Shown: positions 5,457-22,002 of the stretch, piece after piece
How the letters are laid out: each line of letters begins with the position of its first letter
Numbering within the stretch: the stretch's first letter is position 1
The notes under the pieces: generated by a model
The model's input: only the letters and a program-made list of their open reading frames with translations
What the model was told of the DNA's origin: nothing
Databases searched by the model: none
From: Methanothermobacter tenebrarum
GTDB lineage: Archaea; Methanobacteriota; Methanobacteria; Methanobacteriales; DSM-23052
Direction of reading: 5' to 3'
Length of the DNA stretch: 64,000 nt
Assembly (NCBI RefSeq): GCF_003264935.1
Contig: NZ_QLOE01000002.1
Coordinates: forward strand, 62,001 to 126,000
Made by a program: the position numbers and the translations under genes

Positions 5457-5678
5457 TTAGATCACCCCACGTACCTTTAAGTACGACATTAGTAGAGGTA
5501 TTATCAGCCCTAGGATAAATGCTATGATGAGACCATAGCTGATTCCGCTTATCCTAGTGGCTATTAGGCCCGCGAATAATCGGCCATCTCTACCGATTAA
5601 TTGAGTTCTGTACTTTATGTCCTCTGTGACATTTTTTATACCCCGGACATTTGGTTTACTTGATAATTTGATCACCAT
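5457..5678 (-). CDS. mtrF: Tetrahydromethanopterin S-methyltransferase subunit F
   Basis: 73 residues with the conserved 'NVRGIKNVTEDIKYRTQLI' and 'GRDGRLFAGLIATRISGI' region followed by a single C-terminal membrane span. The 'RLFAGLIA' motif is also seen in the C-terminal anchor of MtrA ('[10 protein letters not shown]'), reflecting the known relation of MtrF to the MtrA tail. A strong GGAGGT lies upstream of the start. It sits between mtrA and mtrG in the standard order. Confidence 0.97.
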   Translation of the reverse strand: MVIKLSSKPNVRGIKNVTEDIKYRTQLIGRDGRLFAGLIATRISGISYGLIIAFILGLIIPLLMSYLKVRGVI

Positions 5679-5692
5679 TCCTATTACCTCCG

Positions 5693-6412
5693 TTATATCA
5701 TTAATAGCAATCCTAGGATTAATGTGAAGGCCAAGCCTATCATTATGCCCTGGACTTTCCCTGAGTACATGCCTGCGAACATCCGATTGGTGGAACCTAT
5801 CATTTTAACCTGTGTTTGTATGTTCCTCATCCTAGCTTCTATGAGTGCTGTTTCCGCTGCCACGGGCCTGACTTCTTCACCAACCTCCTCCTCAGCTTCT
5901 TCTTCCACTTCTATTACCATTGCCTCTTCTTCGAATGCTCCTGGGTCTTTTTCTATGCACTCTTTGACTTTCGCCTTGATCTGCTCGGGGTCTTCAACGT
6001 CTATCATATTGACGAGTTCTACTTGCTTCTGGAATCTCTCTATGCCCTCATCTGGTATGTTTTCAATGTAGGGTATTGCACCATCAGCTCCTATGATTTT
6101 TCTGTTCTGTTCTGGGTCCACTCCATTCTCGTAAAGGGCTGCAAGACTCTGACCCACAATATGGCCCTGAACCTCTGAACCACAAAGTACAAGGAACCTG
6201 ATATTAGGATTGGAGATCACATTAGCAATAACCTTCTCAATACCGATGTTCTCTGTCTTACAAGGTCCGGCGATAGCGGCACCAGCTTCATGAGGGACAT
6301 CCTCAATATGGCTGGCGAGAGTCACCGCGGCCACAGGACTCTCAGGGTCACCCACAACATAATCACCATTCACAACAGGCCAACCCTCAGCAGGAGCCTT
6401 TTTCTCAACCAC
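5693..6412 (-). CDS. mtrA: Tetrahydromethanopterin S-methyltransferase subunit A, corrinoid-binding
   Basis: About 239 residues. MtrA carries the 5-hydroxybenzimidazolyl-cobamide that shuttles the methyl group from MtrH to coenzyme M. I place the start at GTG 6412, because AGGAGG lies at normal distance and this puts the cobalt-ligand His of '[11 protein letters not shown]' at residue 84, the known position; the frame stays open to another GTG at 6421. An acidic linker ([11 protein letters not shown]) joins the corrinoid domain to a C-terminal span, about residues 215-237, that anchors the protein in the cytoplasmic membrane. Confidence 0.97.
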
Positions 6413-15615: not shown

Positions 15616-16904
15616 AAATAGTGGTTATAACACCCGAATTCTACAATTACGGTTCAATGATAGTCGCGGGAATCTTAAAAGATCTGGGACATGATGTAAC
15701 ACTACAGAAAGACTTTAAAGATCCCAGGGCGGATATTGTCTTTATAAGTTTGCATTCAACGATCCACCTTATCAAGTATAGAAGAGAGATCAACCAGATA
15801 AAAGCCTTCAAAGTGCTCGGAGGCCCAGTAAGCACAAATCCACAACTAATATTCAGGTACCTTGACATAGACCTTGTGGTCAGAGGGGAGGCAGAAGACA
15901 AAATAGACAAGATAATAGAATACTTAGAGGGTAAGCGGGAGAAAACATCCATCCCAGGTGTAGCGTTCAAAGAAGACGATGAAATAATAGCCACGCCCTC
16001 CACACAAGAAGATTCTATTGAACATCCATTACCCTTGATACCATCTGACATATCAAAGGAGAATATAAGAGGGGCTAACGTCTACATTGAAACCCACCGA
16101 GGATGCGTGGGTAACTGCACATTCTGCCAAGTACCTTGCTTCTTCGGCAGAAAAGTCAGGAGTAGGAGCCTGAAAAGCATAATAGAAGAAGTCAAGGAGT
16201 TCATGAGGAAAGGTGCGAGGAGAATAGCCATAAGTGGGGGTACAGGGACGCTTTATGGTAGCAGAAAATTTAAAAACATAAATGAAGATGCGTTCATAGA
16301 ACTCCTAAAAAAAGTTAGTGAACTCACAAGACCCATAAACTTGACAATCCCTGATATAAGAGTAGATCTCGTAACCGATGACATCCTAGAGACCATAGCA
16401 CGTTACACCAACGGCTGGATATACTATGGAATCGAATCAGGAAGCCCTAAAATCCTGAAGAAGATGAAAAAGGGTATAAGCGTTGATGACGTATCAGAGG
16501 CTGTTGAAATGGCGAGAAAGCATGGAGTGAAAGTCGCCGGATCTTTTATAGTGGGCTATCCAGGAGAAGAAGAGGAGGACTTCCAGGCCACACTCGAACT
16601 TGCAGATGAACTCATGCTAGACGATTATTTTGTGAGTATAGCCGAGCCAATACCAGGAACGGCCCTTGCAGAGGAAGTGAAAAAGCTTCCATTCCATGAG
16701 AATCCAGTTTACATGGACTCTATTGATGGTAGATTTAAGAGTCTCGCGGCAGAGAGAGCCTTCAAATTCCTTTTAGACTCCTATGTATTTAGGAGTATTC
16801 CAGTCCCAGTAACAGATAAGCTATTTAAATCCATCATCGACGAGGTTAAATCCCAAGAAGAGCATATTAGAACCGTAACGGCCATGATAAAAGGTCTTAT
16901 CTAA
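15612..16904 (+). CDS. B12-binding radical SAM protein, candidate McrA glutamine C-methyltransferase
   Basis: 430 residues. The N-terminal about 140 residues form a Rossmann-type cobalamin-binding domain ('MKIVVITPEFYNYGSMIVAG') and the central domain has the radical SAM motif 'GCVGNCTFCQVPC' (C-x3-C-x2-C). It overlaps mmp10 by 4 bases, so the two are co-translated. A family of this architecture (MgmA) C-methylates the McrA active-site Gln; that residue, Gln401, is present in this McrA and is methylated in Methanothermobacter. Neighbourhood and architecture support this role but I cannot separate it by sequence alone from related B12-radical SAM families. Its 3' end overlaps the convergent cation-efflux gene by 8 bases. 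Confidence 0.72.
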   Translation: MKIVVITPEFYNYGSMIVAGILKDLGHDVTLQKDFKDPRADIVFISLHSTIHLIKYRREINQIKAFKVLGGPVSTNPQLIFRYLDIDLVVRGEAEDKIDKIIEYLEGKREKTSIPGVAFKEDDEIIATPSTQEDSIEHPLPLIPSDISKENIRGANVYIETHRGCVGNCTFCQVPCFFGRKVRSRSLKSIIEEVKEFMRKGARRIAISGGTGTLYGSRKFKNINEDAFIELLKKVSELTRPINLTIPDIRVDLVTDDILETIARYTNGWIYYGIESGSPKILKKMKKGISVDDVSEAVEMARKHGVKVAGSFIVGYPGEEEEDFQATLELADELMLDDYFVSIAEPIPGTALAEEVKKLPFHENPVYMDSIDGRFKSLAAERAFKFLLDSYVFRSIPVPVTDKLFKSIIDEVKSQEEHIRTVTAMIKGLI

Positions 16905-18099
16905 ACTTTTTATAGGCGTTTAATATTATTTCTCCTAATGATGTTCCTTCTGGTTTTGTCGTGCCAAGTATATGCTGTGATAAAACATATGCCGGACCCT
17001 CTGACAAATGATCGATTATGAGCACATCGATCTCCTCATCTTTTAGCAACTCCGCAGCTTTTATGCCCCTCTTTTTTTCCAAGTCCTTTCCAGGATTTTC
17101 TATTATTTTAAAATCTTGGACTTTATCATCTTTTACTGATGCTATGATGAAATAATTCGCCCTCCCAAAATGTGAGCTGATAGTCGACTCTAAGCCTCTA
17201 TTATCTTCCAAAGGTGCTGCGATCAACATATAATCCTTAGGTAAGGTTTCTGGTTGTATTATAAGATGATCCATCGCTGGAATTTTCTCCTTGACCCTAT
17301 CATTTACTTGTGAGATTATCTCCTCTATCTTTTTAAGAGGCATCCCCCTCTCAAGTTCAAGGTGGAGTTCCGCGAACAAATAAGGCCCCGATCGTCTGAC
17401 CTTAACATCATGGATGCCCTTCACGCCTTTGACTCCAAGTACAGTCTCTTCTAAGATTTGAAGCGATTTCTGGTCAATACAAGCATCAAGTAAGACTAGT
17501 ATGTCATATCTGGCAAGTTTTAATCCTAGATAGATGATCAGAATCGCTATTAGGATCCCTGCAAAACCTTGAAATCCTCTCAAACCAAGATATTCAAGGA
17601 GTATACCAAAGAACACAACCATAGATGATATTACATCCAAGAAGCTGTGCCTCCCATCATTTATAAGTGCCTGTGAGCCTATCTTCTTTCCTATCCTCTT
17701 CTTGTAAACAGCGAAAAAATAGGAGACAAAAACTGATACCATACTTACAAATAAAGCCAGAAATGGTAACATAAGCCTTGATGGGTTTAATATGTATGAA
17801 AATGATTCCATACCAATTTCAAAGCCGGTTATTATAATCGTTATGGAAACGATTAATGACGCGAAGGTTTCAATCCTATAATACCCATAAGGGAACATTT
17901 CATCCGGTTTTCTCTGCGAAAGCCTCAATCCTATGAAAACAGAAGCAGAAGCAAAAATATCCACAAGTGAATGAAGAGCATCAGCTACTAACGCCAAACT
18001 ACCCGATAAGAGGCCTACAACACCCTTTATTAGCATTAGGAATATGTTCGCATAGGTAGAATATTTGGCAGCCTTCTCACCCTCCTTGAGGAATTTCAT
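16897..18099 (-). CDS. Cation diffusion facilitator fused to a NifX-like domain
   Basis: 400 residues in two parts. Residues 1 to about 290 are a CDF metal transporter: six membrane spans, metal-site motifs 'DALHSLVD' in span 2 and 'HSFLD' in span 5, and a C-terminal cytoplasmic metal-sensing domain. Residues about 291 to 400 ('MLIAAPLEDNRGLESTISSHFGRANYF') form a dinitrogenase iron-molybdenum-cofactor (NifX/NifB-type) domain. CDF proteins export Fe2+, Zn2+ or Mn2+. The gene starts in an ATGA overlap with the preceding MinD fragment, so it is the last gene of the operon 21967-16897. The fused domain resembles the two free NifX-like proteins of the same operon. Confidence 0.9.
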   Translation of the reverse strand: MKFLKEGEKAAKYSTYANIFLMLIKGVVGLLSGSLALVADALHSLVDIFASASVFIGLRLSQRKPDEMFPYGYYRIETFASLIVSITIIITGFEIGMESFSYILNPSRLMLPFLALFVSMVSVFVSYFFAVYKKRIGKKIGSQALINDGRHSFLDVISSMVVFFGILLEYLGLRGFQGFAGILIAILIIYLGLKLARYDILVLLDACIDQKSLQILEETVLGVKGVKGIHDVKVRRSGPYLFAELHLELERGMPLKKIEEIISQVNDRVKEKIPAMDHLIIQPETLPKDYMLIAAPLEDNRGLESTISSHFGRANYFIIASVKDDKVQDFKIIENPGKDLEKKRGIKAAELLKDEEIDVLIIDHLSEGPAYVLSQHILGTTKPEGTSLGEIILNAYKKFR

Positions 18100-18981
18100 A
18101 TTATCCCCATGAGATTATCAATTATATCATTAAATGATTTTTCCAATTCATAGTCATATAATACTGCTGGTATTAAATTAACCAGCGCCTCTATAAAGCT
18201 GACAGTGTAGGGTATTCTCCCAAGCACTGGGATATCCATTGTTTCAGCAAAATCTTCAATCTCTCTAGTAATATCCTCGTTTATATCCCATTTATTGATC
18301 ACTAAACTGTGTGAAATTTCAAAGTGTCTGACAAGCTGAAGCGCCCTTCTAAAATCATTTAATGCAACTATACTAGGTTCAACTACTATAATGACATGAT
18401 CTGTTCCTTTTACTGATGATATTACTGGACATCCGATGCCTGCAGCAGAATCTAAAAGTATTAACTCCATATCTTCTGATTCACAGATTTCGGAGGCTTT
18501 TCTCCTCACAGCATCCACGATTTTCCCGGATCCTGCCTCACCAAGCTTTAATTGGCCAGTTACAATACTGAAGCCATAATTTGTCTCTGATAAACATACT
18601 TCACCCGTATCTACTGGACGGATTTTTATGGCATTAGAAGGGCATGTATATGTGCATGCTCCACATCCTTCACAGAGGAACTTGTTAATTTTTTGGTTTT
18701 GATGTCTTATCATCCCAGTTGATGGCTTTAAACCTACAAGCGCTTAAACATTTTTTATGAGATTTGCAACGCTCTGATAAAATGAATGCCTTTTCGGAGG
18801 CGCTTATCTTTTCACAGTAAAGTTTCTTGTGGTTGCCGAGAAGAAGTGCGAGGTTTGGCGCATCCACGTCACAATCACAAACGATAATATTTTTCCTCTT
18901 GGCGAGTAAAATAGCGATTGAAGCTGTTATACTGGTTTTTCCCGCGCCGCCTTTCCCTGAGAGGATGCATATCTCCTTCAC
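18096..18981 (-). pseudogene. MinD/ferredoxin P-loop ATPase interrupted by a one-base frameshift
   Basis: Two overlapping frames together give one normal MinD-family ATPase with an inserted ferredoxin domain. Part one (18981-18685) has Walker A 'GKGGAGKTS' and the switch 'CDCDVDAPN' and stops after 'CRFKAINWDD'. Part two (18713-18096) has the second cluster 'CEGCGACTYTCPSNAI' and the C-terminal ATPase half with 'LLDSAAGIGCP'. Removing one A from the run AAAAAA near 18690-18696 joins them in frame ('TSKPK' to 'INKFLCEGC'). The first ferredoxin motif reads C-x2-H-x2-C-x3-C, so one cluster ligand is His. Start is GTG 18981 in a GTGA overlap with the preceding gene. A sequencing error, a true mutation or programmed frameshifting are all possible. 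Confidence 0.78.
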
Positions 18982-19856
18982 GTTAACACCATTAGTGATT
19001 CAACCACTTTCATGATATCAGTTATCCCTTGGATTTTAAATGGTTTTCCCTTCGAATAGGCTCGGAGAATAGTTTCAGAATAAGGTATTTCAGCCGCTAC
19101 AGGTATCCCAGATTCCTTGGAGACATTGTATATGATGTTATCATCACCTATCCCTGCACGATTAAGAACGATATTCGAGTCTATGCCAAGTTTTTTCAAC
19201 AATTTAAGGATTAATTTTAGGTCATGGACCCCTAATGGTGTTGGTTCTGTAATTGCGAAGGCGATATGACTTTTTATAAGGGCGTGTATCACGTTACAGT
19301 GCACACCGGCTGCTGTGTCAATGATAATAATGTCCACATCATGAGAATTTTTTATTGTCGCGTCAACTATAGCGGCAGTAGATGCAAGATTAACCTCTGC
19401 TTCTCCAGATATAAGTGTGAAATTTTCTCGAAGTCTTTTTGGATATTTTTCATTTAAAAAGCCCTCATATACTGAACCGATGACTTTTTCAGAGGTTCCT
19501 ATGGCGTTATTTGGACACGTTAGGATGCAAGCACCGCACCCATTACACCTGTCCTCGATAAAAATAGGATAATGACCATGAACATGGACTATTGCATGTT
19601 CTCGGCATGCTTCAGAACATTTACCGCACATGAGACATCTTGTATGATCAAATGATGGTACTGGAATCGTGACTTCCTTTATTTTTTCCCGTTTTACTGA
19701 TAAGATTATATGGTCATCTGGACATTCAACATCAGCGTCTACAAGTAAAACTTTGAATTTTTCTGCGAGGGAAAGTGCAAGGGAACATGCTATAGTTGAT
19801 TTCCCAGTACCGCCTTTTCCACCGGTTATAGCCACCCTCAATGGTTTTATGCCCAT
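18978..19856 (-). CDS. MinD/ParA-family ATPase with inserted ferredoxin domain
   Basis: About 292 residues. Walker A 'GGKGGTGKST' (residues 12-21), switch region 'DADVECPD', then a two-cluster ferredoxin insert with 'CLMCGKCSEAC' and 'CNGCGACILTCP' (residues about 75-125), and Walker B 'IIIIDTAAGVHC'. This family is widespread in anaerobes and probably couples ATP hydrolysis to Fe-S transfer or redox maturation; no exact substrate is known. I use ATG 19856; an upstream GTG at 19892 overlaps the preceding gene. Both clusters have all eight Cys, unlike the frameshifted paralogue next to it. Confidence 0.88.
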   Translation of the reverse strand: MGIKPLRVAITGGKGGTGKSTIACSLALSLAEKFKVLLVDADVECPDDHIILSVKREKIKEVTIPVPSFDHTRCLMCGKCSEACREHAIVHVHGHYPIFIEDRCNGCGACILTCPNNAIGTSEKVIGSVYEGFLNEKYPKRLRENFTLISGEAEVNLASTAAIVDATIKNSHDVDIIIIDTAAGVHCNVIHALIKSHIAFAITEPTPLGVHDLKLILKLLKKLGIDSNIVLNRAGIGDDNIIYNVSKESGIPVAAEIPYSETILRAYSKGKPFKIQGITDIMKVVESLMVLT

Positions 19857-19863
19857 CACCCTT

Positions 19864-20247
19864 TTAGAGGATTCTACCACCTCTTCTTCCACGTGTGGTG
19901 GCTGGAGATGTCACTTCTTGGAGTTTTCCCTGGTTGAAGAGTTTTAGGTTTTCTTCGACAGATCCTTGGGTTGATTTGTAAATTTTTATATTTAGATTAT
20001 TCAAAAGTTCAAATGCGTTTGGACCGATAGCAGTGGATATTATAGCATCCACACCTTCATTTGCGATTAGCTGAGCGGCTTTTATACCGGCCCCGCTAGA
20101 TTCCGAAGTCGCTGAATTCGCCACACTCTTAAAAAATTCTATTTTCCCGTTTTTTATTTCAGCTATGATGAAAAATTGTGCACGCCCAAAAAAGCGGCTG
20201 GCTTCTGATTTAATATCATCTCCAGAAGATGCTACAGCTATTTTCAT
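19864..20247 (-). CDS. NifX/NifB-type cofactor-binding domain protein
   Basis: 127 residues. Begins 'MKIAVASSGDDIKSEASRFFGRAQFFII' in spirit (first part shown: MKIAVASSGDD), has 'GAGIKAAQLIANEGVDAIIS' and 'IGPNAFELL', the pattern of the dinitrogenase iron-molybdenum cofactor family. Such proteins bind metal-sulfur clusters. The C-terminus adds a basic 'TTRGRRGGRIL' tail. The start overlaps the Mrp stop by 4 bases (ATGA). No nif structural genes are in the window, so a role in general Fe-S or other metal handling is more likely than nitrogen fixation. Confidence 0.87.
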   Translation of the reverse strand: MKIAVASSGDDIKSEASRFFGRAQFFIIAEIKNGKIEFFKSVANSATSESSGAGIKAAQLIANEGVDAIISTAIGPNAFELLNNLNIKIYKSTQGSVEENLKLFNQGKLQEVTSPATTRGRRGGRIL

Positions 20248-21047
20248 TTAAACCCTCCTATTCCTATGTTTTTTATTATATTTTCAGATATCCTGGATGA
20301 GTCTATTGTGGGAGTTTCCTTGGATTTTCCCATGCTTGTGTCTAATGGTATTCTGCCTAGGAGTGAGAGGCCGAATTCTTCAGCTAAGAGTCTTCCACCA
20401 TTTTTGCCGAAAACAAAGAGTTTTTCGCCACATTTAGGGCATTGGATATATGACATGTTCTCGATTATCCCTATGATAGGGATTTTTAATTCTTTAACCA
20501 TGTTGATACATTTTTTCACATCATGGAGTGAAACATCATGGGGTGTTGTGATGATAATCACGCCATCAATATTTGGAATTGATTGTAGAACTGTGAGTGG
20601 TTCGTCACCTGTTCCTGGTGGGTTATCAACGAGTAAAATGTCGATATTATCCCAGTTAACATCTGCAAGTAATTGTCTTATGGCGCCTGTTTTTCTCGGC
20701 CCCCTCCATATTATGGGACTATCTTCTGATGGTAGGAAGAATTCTATTGACACGACGCCGATACCTGCCTTAGTTACGGGGTTTATCTTGTTTTCTGTTA
20801 ATGTGATATCTGCTTTTTTAATATTCATCATCTTTGGAACATTGGGGCCGTGGAGATCTGCATCTAGAATGCATACTTTGTAATCTTCTTGTTTGAAAGC
20901 TTCTGCAAGTTTTATCGTGACTGTGGTTTTACCTACTCCGCCTTTTCCGCTCATCACCACAATTTTATGCTTTATATTGGACATTGCATTTGCTATTTCC
21001 ATATCCTGTTTCATGATAGCTAATTTTTGAGCATGTTCCTCATCCAT
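20244..21047 (-). CDS. Mrp/NBP35-type Fe-S carrier ATPase
   Basis: 267 residues. Walker A 'SGKGGVGKTT' (residues 33-42), switch I 'DADLHGPNVP', Walker B 'ILLVDNPPGTGDEP' and the C-terminal cluster-ligand pair in 'YIQCPKCGEK'. These are the marks of the ApbC/Mrp/Nbp35 family, which binds a bridging 4Fe-4S cluster as a dimer and hands it to target enzymes. It is flanked on both sides by NifX-like genes in the same operon, a pairing often seen in methanogens and sulfate reducers. Confidence 0.92.
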   Translation of the reverse strand: MDEEHAQKLAIMKQDMEIANAMSNIKHKIVVMSGKGGVGKTTVTIKLAEAFKQEDYKVCILDADLHGPNVPKMMNIKKADITLTENKINPVTKAGIGVVSIEFFLPSEDSPIIWRGPRKTGAIRQLLADVNWDNIDILLVDNPPGTGDEPLTVLQSIPNIDGVIIITTPHDVSLHDVKKCINMVKELKIPIIGIIENMSYIQCPKCGEKLFVFGKNGGRLLAEEFGLSLLGRIPLDTSMGKSKETPTIDSSRISENIIKNIGIGGFK

Positions 21048-21067
21048 TAAAACACTCTTCTACAAAT

Positions 21068-21391
21068 TCATTGGCTGCGGAGATTTTTCATCTTAAATGT
21101 TTGGAGCACCTGTCTTAGATTGCCAGCAGCTCCTGTTAAAATGTATATATTTCCTTTGAGTAAATCTATGGCTTTGGGTCCTATGTTTGAGCATATGAGG
21201 ATGTCTGCGTCTGAATTTAGGACTATTTCTGCTATTGTCTGTTGGCCGCCGGCATGTTTCCCGGCTATTTTAATTATTTCAAGTTTTGATGTTTTATCAT
21301 CATAAAATGATAGGAATGGACTCTTCCCAAAATGATCTGAGATCCTTGAGTCCATTCCATTATCTTCTAGGAGTGGTATACATATCTTCAT
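21068..21391 (-). CDS. NifX/NifB-type cofactor-binding domain protein
   Basis: 107 residues, single domain: 'MKICIPLLEDNGMDSRISDH' start, 'HAGGQQTIAEIVLNSDADIL' and 'IGPKAIDLL'. Same family as the 127-residue protein two genes downstream and the C-terminal domain of the CDF fusion, so this operon encodes three versions. It is the second gene, 15 bases after the DUF134 regulator. Confidence 0.87.
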   Translation of the reverse strand: MKICIPLLEDNGMDSRISDHFGKSPFLSFYDDKTSKLEIIKIAGKHAGGQQTIAEIVLNSDADILICSNIGPKAIDLLKGNIYILTGAAGNLRQVLQTFKMKNLRSQ

Positions 21392-21406
21392 CTTTACGCC
21401 TCTTGT

Positions 21407-21967
21407 TCAGTCAGCGGCACACATTATTCCGCCACATTTTGGACATTTTTCGCTTCTGCATGGCACTCCTGGGGTTTTTGGTATTTCGTATCCGCATTCG
21501 ATGCATTTGCAGGCTCTGGGTGGCCCGGCTCTCATACCTCTTCCTCTTTGCATACCGATTCTTCCGGGCATTATATCTTCTCCTATTATGGTTATGTTTT
21601 CTGATCCACAGTCTGGACACTTTTTGTATTCTTTTTTGGGGGATATCCATTCGAATTGGCAGTCTAGGCACTTGTATCTTTTTTTGTCTGTTATATAATC
21701 ACCTCCTTTTAGGATTATTGTTTTGCCTTCAACCAAGGCTTTTGCTATCTTTGAGCGTGCTGATGTTATTATGCGGTGGAATGTGGGCTGTGATATTCCC
21801 ATTATTTCAGCGGATTTTTTCTGTTTTATACCATGGTAGTCTCTGAGTCTTATGGCTTCGAATTCATCTAATGTTACTTCTATTAGTTCATCTGAAGTTG
21901 TATCTGGTTTGAAACATTTTATTGGTGGTTTTCCTAGGATTCTTCTGTGTCTTTTTGGCCTCGGCAT
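21407..21967 (-). CDS. DUF134 helix-turn-helix regulator with zinc ribbons
   Basis: 186 residues. The N-terminal 'MPRPKRHRRI' and the helix-turn-helix 'IKQKKSAEIMGISQPTFHRI' (about residues 46-65) are diagnostic of the DUF134 family. The C-terminal half has three CxxC pairs in succession: 'CLDCQFEW', 'CPDCGSEN', 'CKCIECGYEIP', ending 'CPKCGGIMC', so it should bind zinc or Fe-S and could sense metal or redox state. It is the first gene of the operon. A TATA-like TTTAAATACT (22000-21991) and a 20-base palindrome abutting the ATG suggest a leaderless, autoregulated transcript. Confidence 0.88.
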   Translation of the reverse strand: MPRPKRHRRILGKPPIKCFKPDTTSDELIEVTLDEFEAIRLRDYHGIKQKKSAEIMGISQPTFHRIITSARSKIAKALVEGKTIILKGGDYITDKKRYKCLDCQFEWISPKKEYKKCPDCGSENITIIGEDIMPGRIGMQRGRGMRAGPPRACKCIECGYEIPKTPGVPCRSEKCPKCGGIMCAAD

Positions 21968-21968
21968 A

Positions 21969-21988
21969 TTTTGAATATATATTCAAAA
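21969..21988. promoter_or_regulatory. 20-base perfect palindrome, candidate operator of the DUF134 operon
   Basis: TTTTGAATATATATTCAAAA is a perfect palindrome, one base upstream of the DUF134 ATG and downstream of its TATA-like element. It covers the expected transcription start. Binding there would block the operon, so autorepression by the DUF134 protein is the simplest reading. Confidence 0.7.
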
Positions 21989-22002
21989 CTAGTATTTAAA
22001 GA

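Follow-up and report, generated by a model that had tools for sequence, protein, structure and literature searches.

The closest characterised relatives of the gene set analysed here are the ORP proteins of Desulfovibrio (Orp3, Orp4, Orp8 and Orp9/MrpORP), whose cluster is run by a sigma-54 system. In vitro, Orp3/Orp4 receive Fe-S clusters from MrpORP, which binds clusters with both of its domains; the complex has a putative part in cell division, and MrpORP has a polar location (PMC6345978). Single components of the set resemble two other groups, namely the IssA-type NifX proteins, to which Vaccaro et al. assigned MTH1175 (PMC5524996), and the FieF/YiiP-type CDF transporters. Related NifX-domain (IssA-like) proteins of Methanococcus voltae go up on FeS2 (PMC8516115, PMC9431491).

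The window is a 64,000-nucleotide stretch of a contig of the thermophilic methanogen Methanothermobacter tenebrarum. The ORF list and profile searches place seven genes, read as eight ORFs, at 16897-21967 on its minus strand, preceded by a promoter and a palindrome. In the order of transcription the features are as follows.

21993-22000, minus strand: TATA-like box TTTAAATA of the operon promoter (sequence).
21968-21989, minus strand: predicted DUF134 operator, palindrome GTTTTGAATATATATTCAAAAT, with the 20-bp core TTnTGAATATATATTCAnAA at 21969-21988 (conservation and site searches).
21407-21967, minus strand: DUF134 regulator with a sigma-region-4-like HTH and zinc-ribbon-like segments formed by Cys pairs (PF02001, 121.6 bits; cut-off 27).
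21068-21391, minus strand: NifX1, a free NifX-like domain with two invariant Cys (PF02579, 60.2 bits; alignment).
20244-21047, minus strand: Mrp/NBP35-type P-loop ATPase with a CPxC motif (PF10609, 302.9 bits).
19864-20247, minus strand: NifX2, orthologue of MTH1175 (PDB 1EO1), with no Cys and a short Arg-rich tail (PF02579, structure match and alignment).
18978-19892, minus strand: MinD-Fd1, the first of the paired MinD-type ATPases, into which two ferredoxin motifs are inserted (CbiA, 68.1 bits, and Fer4).
18685-18981, minus strand: N-terminal part of MinD-Fd2, its frame broken by +1 in an A6 run (CbiA and Fer4 profiles).
18096-18713, minus strand: C-terminal part of MinD-Fd2, the downstream half of the split frame.
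16897-18099, minus strand: CDF-NifX, a CDF transporter with a C-terminal NifX-like domain at about residues 304-392, in one ORF (PF01545, 166.7 bits; PF16916, 60.6 bits; PF02579).

The earlier note had read this stretch as a DUF134 regulator, three NifX-like domains, three Mrp/MinD ATPases and a CDF-NifX fusion, and the Pfam scores, well over their cut-offs, bear out that content (the three NifX domains reach 60.2, 78.3 and 52.4 bits with PF02579 against a cut-off of 26.3). Its picture of genes running head to tail with overlaps is correct for order and for four of the six junctions (Mrp/NifX2, MinD1/MinD2 and MinD2/CDF by 4 bp each, NifX2/MinD1 by 29 bp), but not for the first two, where DUF134 and NifX1 are 15 bp apart and NifX1 and Mrp 20 bp apart. 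The frameshift it reported in the second MinD-ferredoxin gene was located as one extra A in the A6 run at about 18690-18695. MinD-Fd2 is a single frame in all relatives seen, the nearest included, so that a conserved programmed event is rejected; the break, private to the window's assembly, stems from a sequencing error or from a recent mutation and is no property of the system itself. Separately, NifX2 is split over two frames at 5500-5834 of the locus from the 41_258 MAG (L040), which is likely an assembly error or a recent event.

The resemblance to the Desulfovibrio cluster extends to a pair of MinD-type ATPases with ferredoxin motifs, a NifX-fold ORP protein and an Mrp domain. Mrp and NifX are fused as MrpORP in Desulfovibrio, whereas here Mrp and NifX2 are separate, adjacent and overlapping genes. 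The Mrp protein has the deviant Walker A motif SGKGGVGKTT and a C-terminal CPKC, both conserved in the alignment of its relatives, and scores 309 bits over positions 1-225 of the 365-position MrpORP model NF041136, whose cut-off of 450 it does not reach. NifX2 matches the ORP structure 2WFB (E 5.3e-10). The sigma-54 system is replaced by an archaeal TATA-type promoter and DUF134, counterparts of Orp5 and of the sigma-54 regulator are missing, and the CDF-NifX transporter is an addition. From the IssA of P. furiosus, which has a 70-residue tail, NifX2 differs in that its Arg-rich tail of about 15 residues is short and there is no long Gly/Arg/aromatic cationic tail.

Bacterial counterparts narrow the distance between the two arrangements. 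Peptoclostridium acidaminophilum (NZ_CP007453.1) has a DUF134-NifX-MinD-MinD-MrpORP cluster of the same families, again with DUF134 first and the MinD pair adjacent, although Mrp and NifX are fused as MrpORP, there is no CDF gene and the upstream inverted repeat has another sequence. With DUF134 first and MrpORP last, this cluster closes the gap between the archaeal operon and the ORP cluster. A Chloroflexota counterpart reads HTH-NifX-MinD-MinD-DUF59. Judged by sequence, the gene set of the window amounts to an archaeal version of the ORP/MrpORP cluster with split genes and an added CDF-NifX fusion.

The full seven-gene order recurs, beyond what chance would give, in six further genomes: Methanobacteriaceae archaeon 41_258 (G001, L040), four genomes of another family and one of a third (L041-L044 and L047). 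One of these loci, L043, belongs to M. thermautotrophicus, as shown by a NifX2 that matches MTH1175 (PDB 1EO1) at every residue. Reduced operons occur in three more genomes, as zinc-ribbon protein-NifX-CDF-NifX in G138 and G139 and as DUF134-Mrp-CDF-NifX in G151, which belongs to another order. The CDF gene adjoins the McrQ-methyltransferase gene (TIGR04014) in all full operons and in G151, and flanking genes are common to the operon-bearing loci. An adjacent MinD-Fd pair was found in seven of the 151 genomes, each time within a full operon with CDF-NifX, and the CDF-NifX fusion in nine of the 151 and in G151, that is, in nine genomes besides the window's own. The fusion of a transporter to a NifX-type domain, singled out in the earlier note, is a genuine architecture; the note's idea of a coherent module, for which it looked to gene order in other organisms, likewise holds, as the orthologues are clustered in the same seven-gene order in six other genomes and the objection that they might not be clustered elsewhere falls. 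A contig scan with two short patterns for the fusion matched only two known relatives, and a plasmid search with CDF-NifX gave no record covering 80% of the query and only plain CDFs among the matches listed.

Six close relatives (G002, G003, G143, G145, G146 and G147) have at this site DUF134 as the sole member of the set, with the remaining six genes missing. These genomes retain DUF134 together with its operator, so the protein has a role of its own. No operon remnants were found at the empty sites, and the site shared by relatives in the class favours loss of the block rather than insertion. The shared order and site across families, together with the absence from close relatives, indicate on comparative grounds that the module is old, coherent and dispensable, that is, accessory. 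At E ≤ 1e-20 the window's own genome has Mrp only as the operon copy, and the genus members G002 and G003, which lack the operon, have no Mrp anywhere in the genome; a role in core Fe-S assembly is therefore unlikely.

DUF134 itself has the form of a transcriptional regulator. Its N-terminal half gives a sigma70-ECF match of 27.5 bits with a sigma-region-4-like HTH; in the AlphaFold model, most confident in this half, the HTH fits SigmaE region 4 with an rmsd of 0.7 Å over 47 residues, at a weak Foldseek E-value. Conserved Cys pairs in the C-terminal half recall those of HypA/zinc-ribbon domains. In the open-access literature nothing functional was found for DUF134/UPF0251/COG1342 or for the operon's locus tags.

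Immediately ahead of the start codon of DUF134 lies a palindrome of 20-22 bp, and at the operon a TATA-like box stands 3-4 bp upstream of it. An archaeal repressor would be expected to block transcription from such a position between TATA box and start codon, and we infer repression rather than activation by DUF134. The palindrome is identical in two families and, at L047 of the third, is changed symmetrically on both arms (GTTATGAATATATATTCATAAC). It is unique in the window's own genome at up to three mismatches, so that DUF134 should control this operon alone there. Across the 151 genomes 66 exact copies were found in 51, and none when the same pattern was read backwards as a control in the same genomes; shared ancestry inflates such genome counts but bears less on the variety of adjacent genes and on the constant distance to the TATA box. 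DUF134 is encoded in 56 of the 151 genomes, 50 of which also have the operator, and a single genome (77% complete) has the operator only. Forty-seven of the 66 copies sit 2-91 bp upstream of a DUF134 domain. Four DUF134 loci with no exact copy were read (L116, L117, L118 and L075); these and L050 have the palindrome with one or two mismatches. Inspection of 41 sites showed, in every case, a TATA-like box whose end lies 3-7 nt upstream of the palindrome, compared with 7 of 41 on the opposite side and 3.7% at random positions.

Eighteen of the remaining 19 sites were read, and all precede other targets: Mrp (three), small Cys-rich zinc-ribbon proteins (nine, one of them followed by DUF134), ferredoxin (one), NifX-DUF134 (two), the CDF-NifX operon of G138 and G139 (two) and a small Cys-containing ORF (one). 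In G138 and G139 the operator stays with the CDF-NifX operon and DUF134 lies elsewhere with an operator copy of its own. The earlier note had guessed that the operon is self-regulated; the conserved operator before DUF134 is strong sequence evidence that DUF134 controls its own operon, and from the remaining sites we predict that DUF134 governs a regulon of iron-sulfur/metal genes. The search, which covered the open-access literature but not RegPrecise and similar regulatory databases, found no description of this operator or regulon.

Several observations were made around these sites. G001 has a second exact operator (L086 3036, G001:C153:12535), with a TATA box, before a 65-residue ORF beginning MCRRFRYVGPCKCGFGSHAYY. 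The small Cys/His-rich proteins of L088, L091, L104 and L106, which follow an operator or DUF134, have a DUF134-like zinc ribbon as well as the motif GGCCGSARGKGPLTCGK and are possibly metal carriers. At L101, L102 and L116 NifX-DUF134 is followed by an ABC-type ATPase gene in several genomes, with two ABC domains in L101 where scanned. In Peptoclostridium the archaeal operator was not seen before DUF134; a perfect 15-bp inverted repeat, TTATTGACATATGCC...GGCATATGTCAATAA, lies upstream of the operon (L123 4935-5175) and is possibly a different operator.

The transporter has the CDF membrane domain and ZT_dimer domain of FieF/YiiP-type proteins (TIGR01297, 259.4 bits; cut-off 82.35) and differs from them in its extra C-terminal NifX domain and in site A, which is Asp-Asp-His-Asp in FieF/YiiP but His-Asp-His-Asp here. 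The site A residues H43, D47, H151 and D155 align with D45, D49, H153 and D157 of YiiP and are invariant among the aligned fusions. His-Asp-His-Asp is the set found in zinc-selective CDFs; the site thus looks zinc-type, with Zn(II) the favoured substrate, and there is no support for export of iron in particular. In the fused NifX domain one His-x-Gly motif is the sole candidate ligand that is invariant. NifX2 and the window's fused domain contain no cysteines, and the fused domain is Cys-free in most members. The fused domains form a single old clade of their own (100/99), and an origin as a recent copy of the operon's free NifX is not supported. The structure prediction of the fusion has low confidence (pTM 0.47) and was left out of the interpretation. 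The fused domain may gate export, as the earlier note proposed; as sensor of the system, however, the Cys-rich part of DUF134 is a likelier candidate than the NifX domains.

We consider it fairly probable that this is an accessory operon for iron-sulfur or metal-sulfide handling, the archaeal counterpart of ORP/MrpORP, run by its own first gene. DUF134, probably as a dimer, would bind the palindrome overlapping the expected transcription start and repress its own operon, a step for which the sequence evidence is strong. The conserved Cys pairs suggest that the operator would be freed when the C-terminal half takes up or gives up zinc, iron or a cluster, or becomes oxidised. By homology with the transfer from MrpORP to Orp3/Orp4, Mrp would carry a [4Fe-4S] cluster to the MinD-Fd pair. 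The free NifX proteins may buffer or present clusters or metal sulfide. The cation exported by the CDF transporter would be divalent, with Zn(II) the likeliest and Fe(II)/Co(II) as possibilities; the transporter's cytosolic NifX domain might receive or sense metal and modulate export. The earlier interpretation is partly supported: an iron-sulfur or metal(-sulfide) role is backed by the domain content, the ORP/MrpORP parallel and the rise of the M. voltae NifX proteins on FeS2.

The zinc-type site A also suits a divalent-metal detoxification operon, in which the CDF would act as effector by export of Zn(II)/Co(II)/Cd(II), the NifX domains and ATPases would be chaperones that rid damaged Fe-S proteins of excess metal and repair these proteins, and the zinc ribbons of DUF134 would sense excess zinc. 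The reduced operon of G138 and G139, with zinc-ribbon protein, NifX and CDF-NifX alone, and a patchy accessory presence expected of a stress module agree with this reading. The bacterial counterparts that were read, however, have no CDF gene, the operon consists mostly of Fe-S ATPases, and other operators precede Mrp and ferredoxin without a transporter; we regard detoxification as rather unlikely.

A spatial or cell-division module, in which the MinD-type ATPases position and NifX/Mrp mature their clusters, would accord with the MinD-family P-loop domains and with the polar MrpORP of a complex putatively active in division (PMC6345978), but nearly all relatives lack the module (present in seven of 151 genomes), and the ATPases contain inserted ferredoxin motifs, score far under the MinD profile cut-offs and are linked to a transporter, so that this role is quite improbable. 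That the operon is a remnant of nitrogenase cofactor maturation is scarcely credible: the NifX-like domains point that way, yet the best NifX equivalog (TIGR02663) match, by NifX2, is 20.2 bits against a cut-off of 112, and the bacterial counterparts sit with MrpORP, not with nif genes. The profile search of the whole genome found no NifD above the curated cut-off, in agreement with the earlier statement that nif structural genes are absent, and a nitrogenase-related role is rejected. The same genome (G000) has a stand-alone NifB-like gene at C1:112604-113413 (295.8 bits, below the cut-off of 343.65) and a fourth NifX domain outside the operon at G000:C1:46421-46696. The search for a defence role gave no meaningful match.

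A bolder proposal, less likely than not, is that DUF134 represents a novel family of autoregulators that respond to metal or Fe-S, whose operator is strictly conserved and whose small regulon comprises Mrp, NifX, ferredoxin, Cys/His-rich proteins and CDF-NifX, and that the fused NifX domain makes the CDF transporter respond to Fe-S/metal-sulfide status. Of all the results, the operator and its predicted regulon are of most use; both seem to be undescribed in the sources covered. Methanogens have a large need for both iron and sulfide, and how they sense and traffic them is largely unexplained. The analysis names an operator, TTnTGAATATATATTCAnAA, and proposes a regulator family together with its target genes, those of M. 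thermautotrophicus included, and the close relatives with and without the operon offer a natural comparison.
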